From: Nocardioides albertanoniae
Lineage (GTDB): Bacteria > Actinomycetota > Actinomycetes > Propionibacteriales > Nocardioidaceae
NCBI RefSeq assembly: GCF_006716315.1
Contig: NZ_VFOV01000001.1
Span: forward strand, 4,604,501 to 4,668,500
Length of the DNA: 64,000 bases
Direction: 5' to 3'
Shown: in pieces, positions 2,295-54,935 of the stretch
Layout: every line of letters begins with the position of its first letter
Numbering within the stretch: position 1 is the first letter of the stretch
Notes under the pieces: generated by a model
Told to the model about the DNA's origin: nothing
Databases searched by the model: none
Seen by the model: only the letters and a program-made list of their open reading frames with translations
Translations under genes and position numbers: made by a program

Positions 2295-3437
2295 CAGGGC
2301 ACGCGGTGGCCGCGTTCTCTCGTCGCACTGGTGATCGCCAGGGCGGTGAACCGGTTGGGTTCGTTCGCGATGGCGTTCATGGCGGTCGCCCTCGTCGAGG
2401 TGCACGGCGCATCGCTCGCCACCGCGGGCGCCGTGGTGACCGCCTTCGGCGTCGCCACCATCCCCTCACGGCTCCTCGGCGGCCGGATGGCCGACACAGT
2501 GGGCCGCCGGGCGACCATCGTGATCGGGCTGCTCGCCTGTGCGGCTGCCCAGCTGGTCATCGCCGCCTCCCCCGGGATCACCGGCGCGCTGATCGGCGCG
2601 ACGCTGCTCGGGCTGGCCTACGAGATCTACGAACCGGCTTCCCAAGCACTGATCGCGGAGTCGGTGGAGGCCGAGCGGCGACCCCAGGCCTTCGGGCTCT
2701 ACGGCGCGGCGATGGCCGTCGCCGGCGTCGCCGCCGGAGCGTTGGCGGCCCTCGTGGGCGGCATCGACCTGCGGTTTCTCTTCGTCGCCGACGCGCTCAC
2801 CTGCCTGTGCGCGGCGGCGCTCGTGCTCGCCCTCGTGCGTGACACCACCGCGCGGAGCGACGGCATGGTGCGGACCGGGCCGAGCCCCTGGCGGGACCGC
2901 CGGCTCCTGACGATGCTCGCGCTCGGCACCGGGTTCGCGACCGCATGGATCCTGAGCACGATCGCCCTCCCGCTCACCGTCTCCGCCCGCGGGCACGACG
3001 CTGCCGCCACCGGCTGGCTGCTGCTGGTCGCCGCCCTCGTCACCATCGCCGGCCAACGCCTGCTCCGCGGGGCCGCCTCCCGGCCGTTCACGCTCATCCG
3101 CGCCGGACTCGTGCTGATGGCCGTCGGCTTCGCCGTCATCGCGTACGCAGCACCGCTGCCGCTCCTCGCCCTCGGAACAGCGATCGTGGCACTCGGCGAG
3201 GTGCTCCTCCTGGGTCCGCCGATCGCACTCGTGGCCGGCCTGGCGACCGACGCGTCGAGGGCGGGTTATCTGGCGGCGTACGGCACCTGCTGGGGGATCG
3301 CGCAGACGGTCGGCCCGATGCTCGCGACGGGTCTGATGTCGCACGGCACGCCGACGGTCTGGCTCACCGGAGCCGCCCTCTGTCTCGTGCTCACCGCGAC
3401 CACGGCGGCGGCGACCGCCGTATGTTCACCGAGGTAG
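2265..3437 (+). CDS. MFS transporter, 12 helices
   Basis: The 390-residue product is a full-length major facilitator protein. After the second helix it has GGRMADTVGRRATIVIG, the MFS loop 2-3 signature (G-x3-D-x2-GRR), and about twelve hydrophobic segments follow. It is probably a drug or metabolite efflux carrier; substrate unknown. It is divergent from a CGNR regulator, and a shared palindrome lies between the promoters, so regulation by that neighbour is likely. Its last codons and its TAG stop lie inside the first copy of the 90-bp repeat element (from 3422), so the C-terminus (Cys-Ser-Pro-Arg) comes from the repeat. Confidence 0.85.
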   Translation: MTVIQPLTSHQGTRWPRSLVALVIARAVNRLGSFAMAFMAVALVEVHGASLATAGAVVTAFGVATIPSRLLGGRMADTVGRRATIVIGLLACAAAQLVIAASPGITGALIGATLLGLAYEIYEPASQALIAESVEAERRPQAFGLYGAAMAVAGVAAGALAALVGGIDLRFLFVADALTCLCAAALVLALVRDTTARSDGMVRTGPSPWRDRRLLTMLALGTGFATAWILSTIALPLTVSARGHDAAATGWLLLVAALVTIAGQRLLRGAASRPFTLIRAGLVLMAVGFAVIAYAAPLPLLALGTAIVALGEVLLLGPPIALVAGLATDASRAGYLAAYGTCWGIAQTVGPMLATGLMSHGTPTVWLTGAALCLVLTATTAAATAVCSPR

Positions 3438-3511
3438 CTCAGTCACGGCCCGCTTGCTTCGCGGAGCTCCACGAAGCAAGCACAGCTGGACCGAGTCACC
3501 TCGGTGAGCAT
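3422..3511 (+). repeat. 90-bp triple-hairpin element, copy 1
   Basis: This is one of three gap-free 90-bp copies (others at 44650-44739, reversed, and 54846-54935). It has three palindromes in order: CACCGAG...CTCAGT-like, a central GCTTGCTTCG/CGAAGCAAGC stem around GGAGCTCC, and ACCGAG-N4-CTCGGT. It fills the space between the MFS gene, whose stop codon it supplies, and the glnQ-type gene, whose stop codon begins at the next base. Here it may also act as a bidirectional terminator. Confidence 0.85.
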
Positions 3512-4279
3512 TCAGAGCACGCGGGCGAGGAACGCCTGCGTGCGCTCGTGCTGCGGGTTGCCGAGCACGTCGTCGGGCGCGCCCTCCTCGACGATCACGC
3601 CACCGTCCATGAAGACCACCTTGTCGGCGACCTCGCGGGCGAAGCTCATCTCGTGGGTGACGACCATCATCGTCATGCCCTCGGAGGCGAGGTCCTTCAT
3701 GACGGCCAGCACGTCGCCGACGAGCTCAGGGTCGAGCGCGGAGGTGGGCTCGTCGAACAGCATCATGTCGGGGCTCATCGACAGCGCCCGCGCGATGGCG
3801 ACGCGCTGCTGCTGGCCGCCGGAGAGGTGCGCCGGGTAGGCGTCGGCCTTATCGGAGAGACCGACCTTCTCCAGGTTGGCCTTCGCGATCTGCGTGGCCT
3901 CGGCCCGCGGTCGCTTGAGCACCTTCTCCTGCGAGACGGTGAGGTTGCGCAGCACCGTCATGTGCGGGAAGAGGTTGAACTGCTGGAAGACCATCCCGAT
4001 CCGGGCGCGCAGCGCGTCGACGTCGGCGTCCGGGTCGGTGATCTCGTCGCCCTCGACCAGGATGGTGCCGCTGGTGGGCTGCTCGAGCAGGTTGACGCAG
4101 CGCAGCAGCGTCGACTTCCCGGACCCCGAGGGGCCGATCACGCAGACCACCTCGCCGCGACCGATGTGGAAGTCGATGCCCTTGAGCACCTCGTTCTTGC
4201 CGAAATACTTGTGCAGCTGCCGTACGTCGATCGCGGCGGCGCCGCGCTCGGCGACCGATGTCGCTTCGGTCTGAGTCAT
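3512..4279 (-). CDS. polar amino acid ABC transporter, ATP-binding protein
   Basis: The 255-residue ATPase has Walker A GPSGSGKS (49-56), Q-loop region FQQFNLFPH (98-106), signature LSGGQQQ (152-158), Walker B/D-loop [10 protein letters not shown] (174-183) and the switch histidine in VVTHEMSF. It matches the GlnQ/HisP group, which powers uptake of glutamine, glutamate, histidine and similar amino acids at the cytoplasmic face of the membrane. Its ATG overlaps the permease stop in a TGATG junction. It is the last gene of a binding protein-permease-ATPase operon. Confidence 0.93.
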
Positions 4280-53334: not shown

Positions 53335-54833
53335 GCACACCCAGCACCACCGAGGCCCCGACCATCCCTTGTGTCACAGTCAACGGCGAGCAGGCTCCCC
53401 TGACCGACGCGTCCGCCCACACCACCGCGCTCGACTGGCTGCGCGGACGCGGCCTGACCGGCGCGAAGGAAGGCTGCGCGGAAGGCGAGTGCGGCGCCTG
53501 CTCGATCCTCGTGGCCCGGCCCGGCGTCGACGCCGAGACCGAGTGGACCGCCGTCAACGCCTGCCTGATCCCGGTCGCAGCACTCGACGGCCAGGAGGTC
53601 GTCACCGGTGAGGGGCTCGGCTCCAGCGGCGACCTCCATCCGGTGCAGCGCGAGCTGGCCGTACGCGGCGGGTCGCAGTGCGGCTACTGCACGCCCGGCT
53701 TCGTCTGCAGCCTGGCCGCGGAGTTCTATCGCCCGGGACGTACGGCTGACGTGGCTGATGCGGCTGATGCGGCTGATGCGGAGGCCAAGCGGTGCGACCA
53801 CGAGCACGGCCCCAACGGCGTCGACCTGCACGCGCTGAGCGGCAACCTGTGCCGCTGCACCGGCTATCGCCCGATCCGCGACGCGGCCTACGCGCTGGGC
53901 GCTCCCGCCGACGACGACGCCCTCGCGGCCCGTCGACAGGCGCCGCCGCCGCAGCCGCGCGCGACCCGGCTGGCCGTCGACGGCGCCGAGTACGTCCGCC
54001 CGGCCACTCTCCCCGAGGCCCTCACGCTGCTGAGCGAGCGCCCCGAGGCACAGGTGGTCGCCGGCTCGACCGACTGGGGCGTGGAGGTCAACATCCGCGG
54101 CCGCCGCGCACCGCTCGTCGTGGCGGTCGACCGGCTGCCCGAGCTCCGCTCGCTCACGATCGGCGACGACGTGATCGAGATCGGCGCCGCCCTGACCCTG
54201 ACCGAGATCGAGCGCAGGCTCGCCGGCCGGGTGCCGCTCCTGGCCGAGCTGTTCCCACAGTTCGCCTCCCGCCTGATCCGCAACGGCGCGACCCTCGGGG
54301 GCAACATCGGCACCGGCTCGCCGATCGGCGACGCCCCGCCGGCCCTGCTGGCGCTCGACGCCGACGTCGTGCTCGCCTCACCGCGCGGCGAGCGGGTCGT
54401 ACCGCTGGCCGACTACTTCACCGGCTACCGGCAGACGGTCCGGGCCGCCGACGAGCTGATCCGCGGCGTACGGATCCCGGTGCCGTTGGCTCCGATCGTC
54501 GGCTTCCACAAGATCGCCAAGCGCCGCTTCGACGACATCTCCAGCGTGGCCGTCGCGTTCGCGCTCGAGGTCGCCGACGGCCACGTGGTCCGCGCCCGGA
54601 TCGGCCTGGGCGGGGTAGCCGCCACCCCGCTGCGTGCCGTCGCCACCGAGCAGGAGCTCCTCGGACGGCCCTGGACCGAGGAGACCGTACGCAGCGCCGC
54701 CGCCGTCCTCGCCGGCGAAGGCACCCCGATGGACGACCACCGGGCCAGCGCGGCGTACCGGACCGCGATGCTCGGCCAGTCGCTGCTGCGGCTGTTCCAC
54801 ACGCATCCGGAGACCCAGGTGGTGCCGGCATGA
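53331..54833 (+). CDS. xdhA: xanthine dehydrogenase small subunit (2Fe-2S and FAD domains)
   Basis: The 500-residue protein has an N-terminal 2Fe-2S ferredoxin domain (Cys49, 54 and 57 in EGCAEGECGACS), a second 2Fe-2S domain (GSQCGYCTPGF ... GNLCRCTGYRPI), and a CO-dehydrogenase-type FAD domain (VVAGSTDWGV; RNGATLGGNIGTGSPIGD). It passes electrons from the Mo subunit to NAD+. An insert encoded by four 9-bp repeats (ADVADAADAADA) lies between the two cysteine motifs of the second domain. Its ATG overlaps the permease fusion stop. Confidence 0.93.
   Translation: MSTPSTTEAPTIPCVTVNGEQAPLTDASAHTTALDWLRGRGLTGAKEGCAEGECGACSILVARPGVDAETEWTAVNACLIPVAALDGQEVVTGEGLGSSGDLHPVQRELAVRGGSQCGYCTPGFVCSLAAEFYRPGRTADVADAADAADAEAKRCDHEHGPNGVDLHALSGNLCRCTGYRPIRDAAYALGAPADDDALAARRQAPPPQPRATRLAVDGAEYVRPATLPEALTLLSERPEAQVVAGSTDWGVEVNIRGRRAPLVVAVDRLPELRSLTIGDDVIEIGAALTLTEIERRLAGRVPLLAELFPQFASRLIRNGATLGGNIGTGSPIGDAPPALLALDADVVLASPRGERVVPLADYFTGYRQTVRAADELIRGVRIPVPLAPIVGFHKIAKRRFDDISSVAVAFALEVADGHVVRARIGLGGVAATPLRAVATEQELLGRPWTEETVRSAAAVLAGEGTPMDDHRASAAYRTAMLGQSLLRLFHTHPETQVVPA
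53745..53780 (+). repeat. 4 x 9-bp tandem repeat in xdhA
   Basis: GCTGACGTG followed by three identical GCTGATGCG units, in frame, encodes an Ala-Asp-rich loop. It is likely to vary in copy number by slippage. Confidence 0.85.
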
Positions 54834-54845
54834 GCGACCCGCGGA

Positions 54846-54935
54846 ATGGTCACCGAGGTGGCTCGGTGAGCGCCCACTGCCTTCGTGGAGGTCCACGAAG
54901 GAACTGCACCCGGACCGAGTCACCTCGGTCAGCAT
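54846..54935 (+). repeat. 90-bp triple-hairpin element, copy 3
   Basis: A gap-free 90-bp match to copies 1 and 2, lying between xdhA (stop 54833) and xdhB. Its central stem is CCTTCG/CGAAGG around TGGAGGTCCA. It is directly followed by CCGAGGAGG, the ribosome-binding site of xdhB, the same arrangement as copy 2 before the FAH gene. It is open in the xdhB frame. Confidence 0.85.

Follow-up and report, generated by a model that had tools for sequence, protein, structure and literature searches.

The 64,000-nucleotide (nt) window of the Nocardioides albertanoniae genome analysed here (NZ_VFOV01000001.1, positions 4,604,501 to 4,668,500) contains three copies of a palindromic repeat, termed family A. 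The repeat is dispersed in a group of Nocardioides genomes, differs in presence among relatives at orthologous sites, contains hairpins and lies at gene ends; in operons, copies often carry an open frame coupled to both neighbouring genes. It is probably a non-autonomous mobile palindromic element, with the layout of a REPIN (repetitive extragenic palindromic (REP) doublet forming hairpins) and with the behaviour of a mycobacterial interspersed repetitive unit (MIRU) in operons.

Structure and range of family A

The original prediction, made from the letters of the window, described three copies aligning without gaps over 90 bp. The alignment was borne out, and the natural unit is 94 bp (Table 1). 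This composite unit consists of a 16-nt palindrome (ACCGAGGTANCTCGGT) present twice, in inverted orientation, on either side of a central hairpin, and ends in GGATGYTS. Its layout reads GGATGYTS, ACCGAG-GTAN-CTCGGT, a spacer, the central hairpin around GGAGCTCC, a second spacer, ACCGAG-NTAC-CTCGGT and SARCATCC. The outer hairpins had been called nearly identical (ACCGAG-N4-CTCGGT), which is correct except for the first hairpin of copy 1, which has CTCAGT. The central stems differ by the paired changes reported (GCTTCG/CGAAGC, CCCTCG/CGAGGG and CCTTCG/CGAAGG). As also predicted, every copy touches or overlaps the 3' end of a gene, and directly after copies 2 and 3 come CCGAGGAG and an ATG.

The genome of the window (G000; 4.97 Mb, one contig) holds 12 composites: 11 measure exactly 94 nt, and the twelfth carries a 1-nt deletion. 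A second form of the element is a 32-bp single hairpin, equal to the composite minus 62 nt, which is the distance between the arm repeats; at least about 12 single palindromes were found in G000 among the matches listed. The palindrome ACCGAGGTANCTCGGT, searched with at most 1 mismatch, gave 29+28 matches in G000 vs 0+0 for a reversed-pattern control, and full copies elsewhere were recovered by BLAST (best E 7.2e-20), both results lying well beyond chance expectation. The covariance-model search proposed with the original prediction detected many further copies in G000 and in eight other Nocardioides genomes. Match counts, which sum the two strands and come from no more than 150 scored candidates in each genome, were 111 in G110, 104 in G298, 99 in G299, 47 in G313, 46 in G250, 38 in G175, 36 in G000, 32 in G215, 12 in G191 and 0 in G254.

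Across 341 genomes of the taxonomic family, the arm pattern had any match in 45 and more than two matches in only nine, all of a single genus (G000, G110, G175, G191, G215, G250, G298, G299 and G313). A search for the exact composite pattern across 84,980 species, from which the window's own genome may have been left out, returned 30 stretches, in Nocardioides only (albus JCM 3185, luteus JCM 3358 and BAFB, turkmenicus KC13, sp. YR527 and MAG-46). Family A has so far been found in one small group of Nocardioides.

At four loci (L146, L147, L159 and L259), a CCCTTCGACAGGCTCAGGACA-like repeat was observed inside family A hairpin loops, with the outer stem still paired.

Presence and absence at orthologous sites

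Orthologous loci with and without the element were compared, as had been proposed. The flanks of 16 G000 sites (one partly) were located in relatives, and 12 sites were aligned across eight relatives. Family A was missing from at least one of the nine genomes at each of the 12 aligned sites, and the copies are therefore not ordinary conserved terminators. At the site of copy 1, the composite is present in G000 and G110, a single is present in three genomes and a hairpin with a foreign interior in three, and G215 has nothing alike. The site of copy 2 carries an element in all relatives except G191, in tandem in G299, G298 and G313 and as a single plus a composite in G110. Copy 3, at the xanthine dehydrogenase (xdh) junction, is shared by G000, G299, G110 and G250 and is absent from G215, G298, G191, G175 and G313.

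The remaining sites were similarly polymorphic. L007 is occupied in G000 only, with CTGATGGC on both sides of the insertion, and L006 and L003 are occupied in 5/9 and 7/9 genomes, respectively. L004 is whole in five genomes, reduced to a half in G175 and to an end remnant in G215, and absent in two. L014 carries the element in G000, G175 and G299 (two copies), none in G298, G313 and G215, and other inserts in G110, G250 and G191. L052 is a single in G000, a composite in three genomes, a single plus a composite in two and empty in three. A constant long target duplication was considered and is not general: xdh, with an imperfect one of about 20 nt, and L007 (CTGATGGC) are the only clear cases.

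Other hairpin families, which the original prediction had not included, occur at the same sites. Across genomes, L040, L025 and L027 hold singles, composites, nothing or other families, the last being, in sister species, family B (arms TTCGTCNAGGTATGCAG) or family C (GGATACCCGGTTGACCGGGTATCC). Family B, as read in three 84-nt copies, has inverted arms (TTCGTCNAGGTATGCAG ... CTGCATACCTNGACGAA) around a central hairpin that resembles the one in family A. Its arms matched in 39 of the 341 genomes, with at least 10 matches in 11, of which six are not family A carriers.

Open frames at operon junctions

The contexts of 106 composites, drawn from the loci collected and deduplicated on the element plus 20 nt, were called by a heuristic based on third-codon-position GC content (GC3) as convergent in 45, same-direction in 47, divergent in 1 and unclear in 13. 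In 24 of the 47 same-direction copies, a frame along the gene direction is open and its stop overlaps a start. The arrangement is two-sided in 18 of the 47: the start of a mini open reading frame (mini-ORF) overlaps the upstream stop, and its stop overlaps the downstream start. Corresponding downstream-half and two-sided counts in the controls were 2 and 0 of 47 for the antisense strand, 7 and 0 of 90 strand tests for the 45 convergent copies (2 of the 7 being the misplaced L152 and L153) and 3 and 0 of 28 strand tests for the 14 other copies. The difference between 18/47 and the antisense 0/47 gave a Fisher p of about 1e-6, uncorrected for relatedness.

The 18 two-sided mini-ORFs start 2-14 nt before the element and stop 9-18 nt after it; 17 use one common frame and L007 uses another. 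They belong to seven flank clusters, including one that merges unlike junctions. Flank clustering gave 41 clusters from the 106 copies, with single linkage merging unlike sites, so that site counts are lower bounds. In the cases read, mini-ORFs are 19-80 codons long. Such coupled mini-ORFs, like the 32-bp single form, go beyond the original prediction.

Individual junctions offer several states side by side. Between the glycerate kinase and FAA hydrolase-family genes, G299 has two coupled 40-aa mini-ORFs, G298 has one 80-aa ORF and G250 has one of 40 aa. In G000, copy 2 is fused in frame to the kinase, whose ORF continues across the element to a stop in an ATGA overlap with the next gene. G191, with no element, has an unrelated 27-aa coupled ORF. 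At L052, the mini-ORF measures 19 aa where the insert is a single, 39 aa where it is a composite (three genomes) and 50 aa where a single and a composite occur together (two genomes), and the frame is intact in 6/6 carriers despite differing inserts; the empty junctions read TGATG in three genomes. At xdh, the 41-aa mini-ORF and both overlaps are present in G000, G299, G110 and G250, the empty junctions read ATGA in four genomes, and G175 has a different 7-aa ORF. The open frame outlasts tandem duplication, the 62-nt difference and upstream-gene fusion, with exceptions.

The last-arm codon in frame-1 operon copies is TCA in 15/17 and TCT in 2/17; in convergent copies TGA stands there in 26/43 and 35/43 (two strands). 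Selection on the mini-ORF peptide is unsupported, with no codon-position signal of coding, and peptide conservation in operon copies is no greater than in non-coding copies. Only the openness of the frame, and not the peptide, seems to be kept.

Fold and gene ends

Covariation was assessed in 104 distinct composites against 500 shuffles, which ignore relatedness. Several central pairs exceeded the shuffles, among them columns 35-58 (68 paired vs 48 expected) and 36-57 (81 vs 68), and 0/500 shuffles reached either value. Other central pairs showed no excess (e.g., columns 42-51, 73 vs 78 expected). Local pairs of the outer hairpins were weaker: 63 vs 55 for columns 7-24 (19/500 shuffles) and 59 vs 52 for columns 69-86 (39/500). 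RNAalifold favours a long stem joining both arms. As a possible alternative fold, this stem is slightly favoured by two column pairs in the loops, 15-78 (102 vs 99, 0/500 shuffles) and 16-77 (95 vs 92, 3/500), and finds no support at two informative pairs, columns 7-86 (51 vs 53 expected) and 24-69 (28 vs 52). The idea that the loop is a deliberate stop codon was dropped, as the loops GTAC, GTAT and GTGG occur too.

Among the copies that could be assessed, 93/104 lie near a neighbour's stop, and the hairpins are stable. An Rfam scan of the window at gathering thresholds returned three tRNAs only and no RNA family at the family A copies.

Interpretation and alternative explanations

On balance, we consider it likely that family A is a mobile element that does not encode its own mover and that combines a REPIN-like layout with MIRU-like coupling in operons. 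It would move by an enzyme or by recombination, and the lengths of the two forms suggest that the 32-bp single arises by deletion between the composite arms. Between convergent genes, the element provides or borders stop codons and, although lacking a T-run, may end transcription on both strands. At operon junctions with a stop/start overlap, it is accompanied by a second such overlap, which places it inside a mini-ORF coupled to both neighbours. The open frames suggest that ribosomes could pass through this mini-ORF, keep the coupling and prevent polarity, with selection keeping the openness of the frame rather than the peptide.

Several observations weigh against this interpretation. The contexts are calls of the GC3 heuristic, in which at least two "convergent" copies (L152 and L153) are really operon copies on short stretches. 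The two-sided test was failed by 29 of the 47 same-direction copies, and 23 also failed the downstream half. In N. albus (G110), the composite at the kinase junction is interrupted by a frame-1 stop and there is no clean chain; at the same junction, the chain in G313 depends on an internal GTGA restart, and G215 and G175 gave no chain output, with the downstream overlap alone shown. Diversity by codon position had no third-position excess (0.212, 0.212 and 0.174 at positions 1, 2 and 3 in operon copies; 0.252, 0.250 and 0.221 in convergent copies). Flanks matched within vs across sites at 7.2 vs 5.6 of 12 nt upstream and 4.4 vs 4.1 of 10 nt downstream. A profile search for PF01797 (Y1_Tnp) at E 0.01 found no match in 10/10 genomes, nine of them family A carriers. 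In a search that covered exact 14-nt arms in the single genome G110, none of the 33+33 matches bounded a longer parent element. Finally, a T-run terminator scan of the three copy regions returned 0 sites, and TTTT was found within 15 nt of the element in 0/106 copies. An intrinsic terminator with a T-run was accordingly rejected, and these negative scans lower the odds for a terminator reading. Many actinobacterial terminators have no T-run.

Spread by homologous or illegitimate recombination, gene conversion or template switching at palindromes, with no dedicated transposase, is unlikely but accounts for part of the data: the exchange of singles for composites, the tandem copies and the foreign interiors within one site, the lack of any transposase or parent element found and the lack of a constant long target duplication. 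It does not readily explain the constant 94-nt length at many non-homologous sites or the G000-only insertion at L007, flanked on both sides by CTGATGGC.

The original prediction had likened the repeats to REP or Rickettsia palindromic elements (RPE) and had suggested a search for a REP-associated tyrosine transposase (RAYT) gene. The likeness to a mobile element was upheld insofar as family A is dispersed, structure-conserved and polymorphic among relatives, its REP-like side being the single and paired inverted palindromes and its RPE-like side the in-frame reading. Three copies only, alignable sites in relatives and a lack of covariation, the outcome named beforehand as contrary, were not what was found. 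The RAYT part is unsupported. An inverted palindrome pair round a spacer, singles beside doublets, arrays and gene-end position are shared with REPINs as described in PMC3116915, but PF01797 was absent from all 10 genomes; at E 1e-5, only G231 (86% complete), which has no arm match, gave one among the 215 genomes searched from the genus. The same profile matched in E. coli and others as a positive control. A RAYT, a Y1 HUH transposase, is thus strongly disfavoured as the mover, no Y1 enzyme being found in carriers, and a REPIN/REP family moved by one is very improbable.

We give equally little credence to a genuine small-protein gene family in which the palindromes are incidental. Operon copies do have a 31-residue core in common and form complete coupled ORFs, but there is no third-position diversity excess, L007 is read in another frame, and peptide length and sequence vary at one junction. 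Ordinary conserved transcription terminators, suggested by the stable hairpins, the 45/106 convergent calls and the proximity to stops, are refuted as the whole explanation and very improbable as such, given a sequence common to copies genome-wide, the presence/absence differences at 12/12 sites, the unrelated families at the same sites and the lack of a T-run; the mobile element may still act as a terminator where genes converge.

A mobile element readable in operons would have several consequences. Readable linking mini-genes suggest a route by which a mobile repeat enters operons without breaking them, and a palindromic repeat of REPIN-like layout is seen spreading in genomes that yielded no Y1 transposase. 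Sister species supply natural replicates at one junction (empty, single, composite, tandem and fused) for asking whether translation through hairpins shields operons from polarity. The findings also suggest that gene ends are exchangeable for mobile sequence, and annotation may be misled, as by the extra C-terminal tail on the glycerate kinase ORF of the window. More tentatively, and with considerable doubt on our part, families A, B and C, unlike in sequence, might be mobile gene-end cassettes that compete for the same gene ends, acting as interchangeable two-way terminators where untranslated and silenced by translation in coupled operons, with the frame and not the peptide selected.

Relation to known repeats

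MIRUs are not known to have strong dyad symmetry. In a review (PMC12548453), they are described as apparently mobile and inserting at start codons, with a MIRU ORF that is coupled at -4 nt and likely harmless to expression. By that description, rather than by sequence comparison, family A operon copies show the same coupling, with an ORF overlapping both neighbours (18/47; controls 0), but family A is palindromic and lies about as often between convergent genes. REP doublets, according to PMC3116915, are inverted repeats that fold into hairpins, and singlets are viewed as remnants. Family A likewise has two inverted palindromes round a spacer and singlets, but its carriers have no Y1 transposase and it has a third, central hairpin at a fixed position. 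Unlike REPs, it ends in GGATG/CATCC and has no GTAG at the stem base, GTAG being only one of several loops.

GTAG- and CGTC-tagged REPs lie near or overlap coding regions, and GTAG termini often supply a TAG stop to neighbouring ORFs, according to PMC3733652, the text of which makes no mention of Actinobacteria or of names beginning with Nocardioid. Family A too lies near or overlaps coding regions and supplies stops, but these derive from the TGA at its ends or from its loops, and its copies in operons remain open. RPEs, as summarized in PMC10969869, are palindromic, mobile and in frame and can extend a protein. Copy 2 likewise extends the kinase in frame; in contrast to RPEs, family A is mostly at gene ends, its operon copies are mini-ORFs between genes and no conserved peptide is evident. 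The same paper (PMC10969869) describes SPRITE and other terminator-like miniature inverted-repeat transposable elements (MITEs) as small repeats that cluster together and are inserted in each other. Family A has terminal inverted repeats, and it differs from such MITEs in having no T-run and no parent insertion sequence found. In the open-access literature, no title among the matches listed describes the family A repeat.

Other features of the window

Table 1. Family A copies, neighbouring ORFs and sites of other hairpin families (window positions unless a genome or locus is given)
Feature	Position	Strand	Remarks
Family A composite, copy 1	3420..3513	+	Between convergent genes
Family A composite, copy 2	44648..44741	-	Within operon
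Family A composite, copy 3	54844..54937	+	Within operon
MFS transporter ORF	2265..3437	+	MFS_1 1.2e-34; stop TAG 3435-3437 inside first loop of copy 1
ABC transporter ATPase ORF	3512..4279	-	ABC_tran 1.6e-39; stop 3512-3514 overlaps last 2 nt of copy 1
FAA hydrolase-family ORF	43767..44633	-	FAA_hydrolase 2.7e-67; downstream of copy 2
Glycerate kinase ORF	44630..45856	-	Gly_kinase 7.4e-121, residues 4-368 of 408
Molybdopterin dehydrogenase FAD/2Fe-2S subunit ORF (xanthine dehydrogenase type)	52647..54833	+	FAD_binding_5, CO_deh_flav_C, Fer2_2; real start probably later than 52647
Mini-ORF, 41 codons	54830..54955	+	Holds copy 3; ATGA overlaps with preceding and following ORFs
Molybdopterin-binding subunit ORF (xanthine dehydrogenase type)	54952..57339	+	MoCoBD_1, MoCoBD_2, Ald_Xan_dh_C; downstream of copy 3
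Family B sites	L261, L262, L266, L271, L264; G000 C1:408339-408422		Four further pairs in addition
Family C hairpin repeat GGATACCCGGTTGACCGGGTATCC	L281, L282, L279		Site where others carry family A

Three further sets of repeats were observed in the window. A palindromic repeat, CGTCGAGTCGGCTCGTT...AACGAGCCGACTCGACG, occurs at 21158-21222 and again at 59526-59655, the two places agreeing at 89% over 65 nt. At 25267-26551, repeats of 300 nt (77%) and 113 nt (81%) stand in direct orientation at a distance of about 0.8 kb and probably reflect a tandem gene duplication. An inverted repeat at 16924-17035, whose arms measure 47 nt and which has motifs resembling GTGACTTCTCG, lies close to two tRNA genes.

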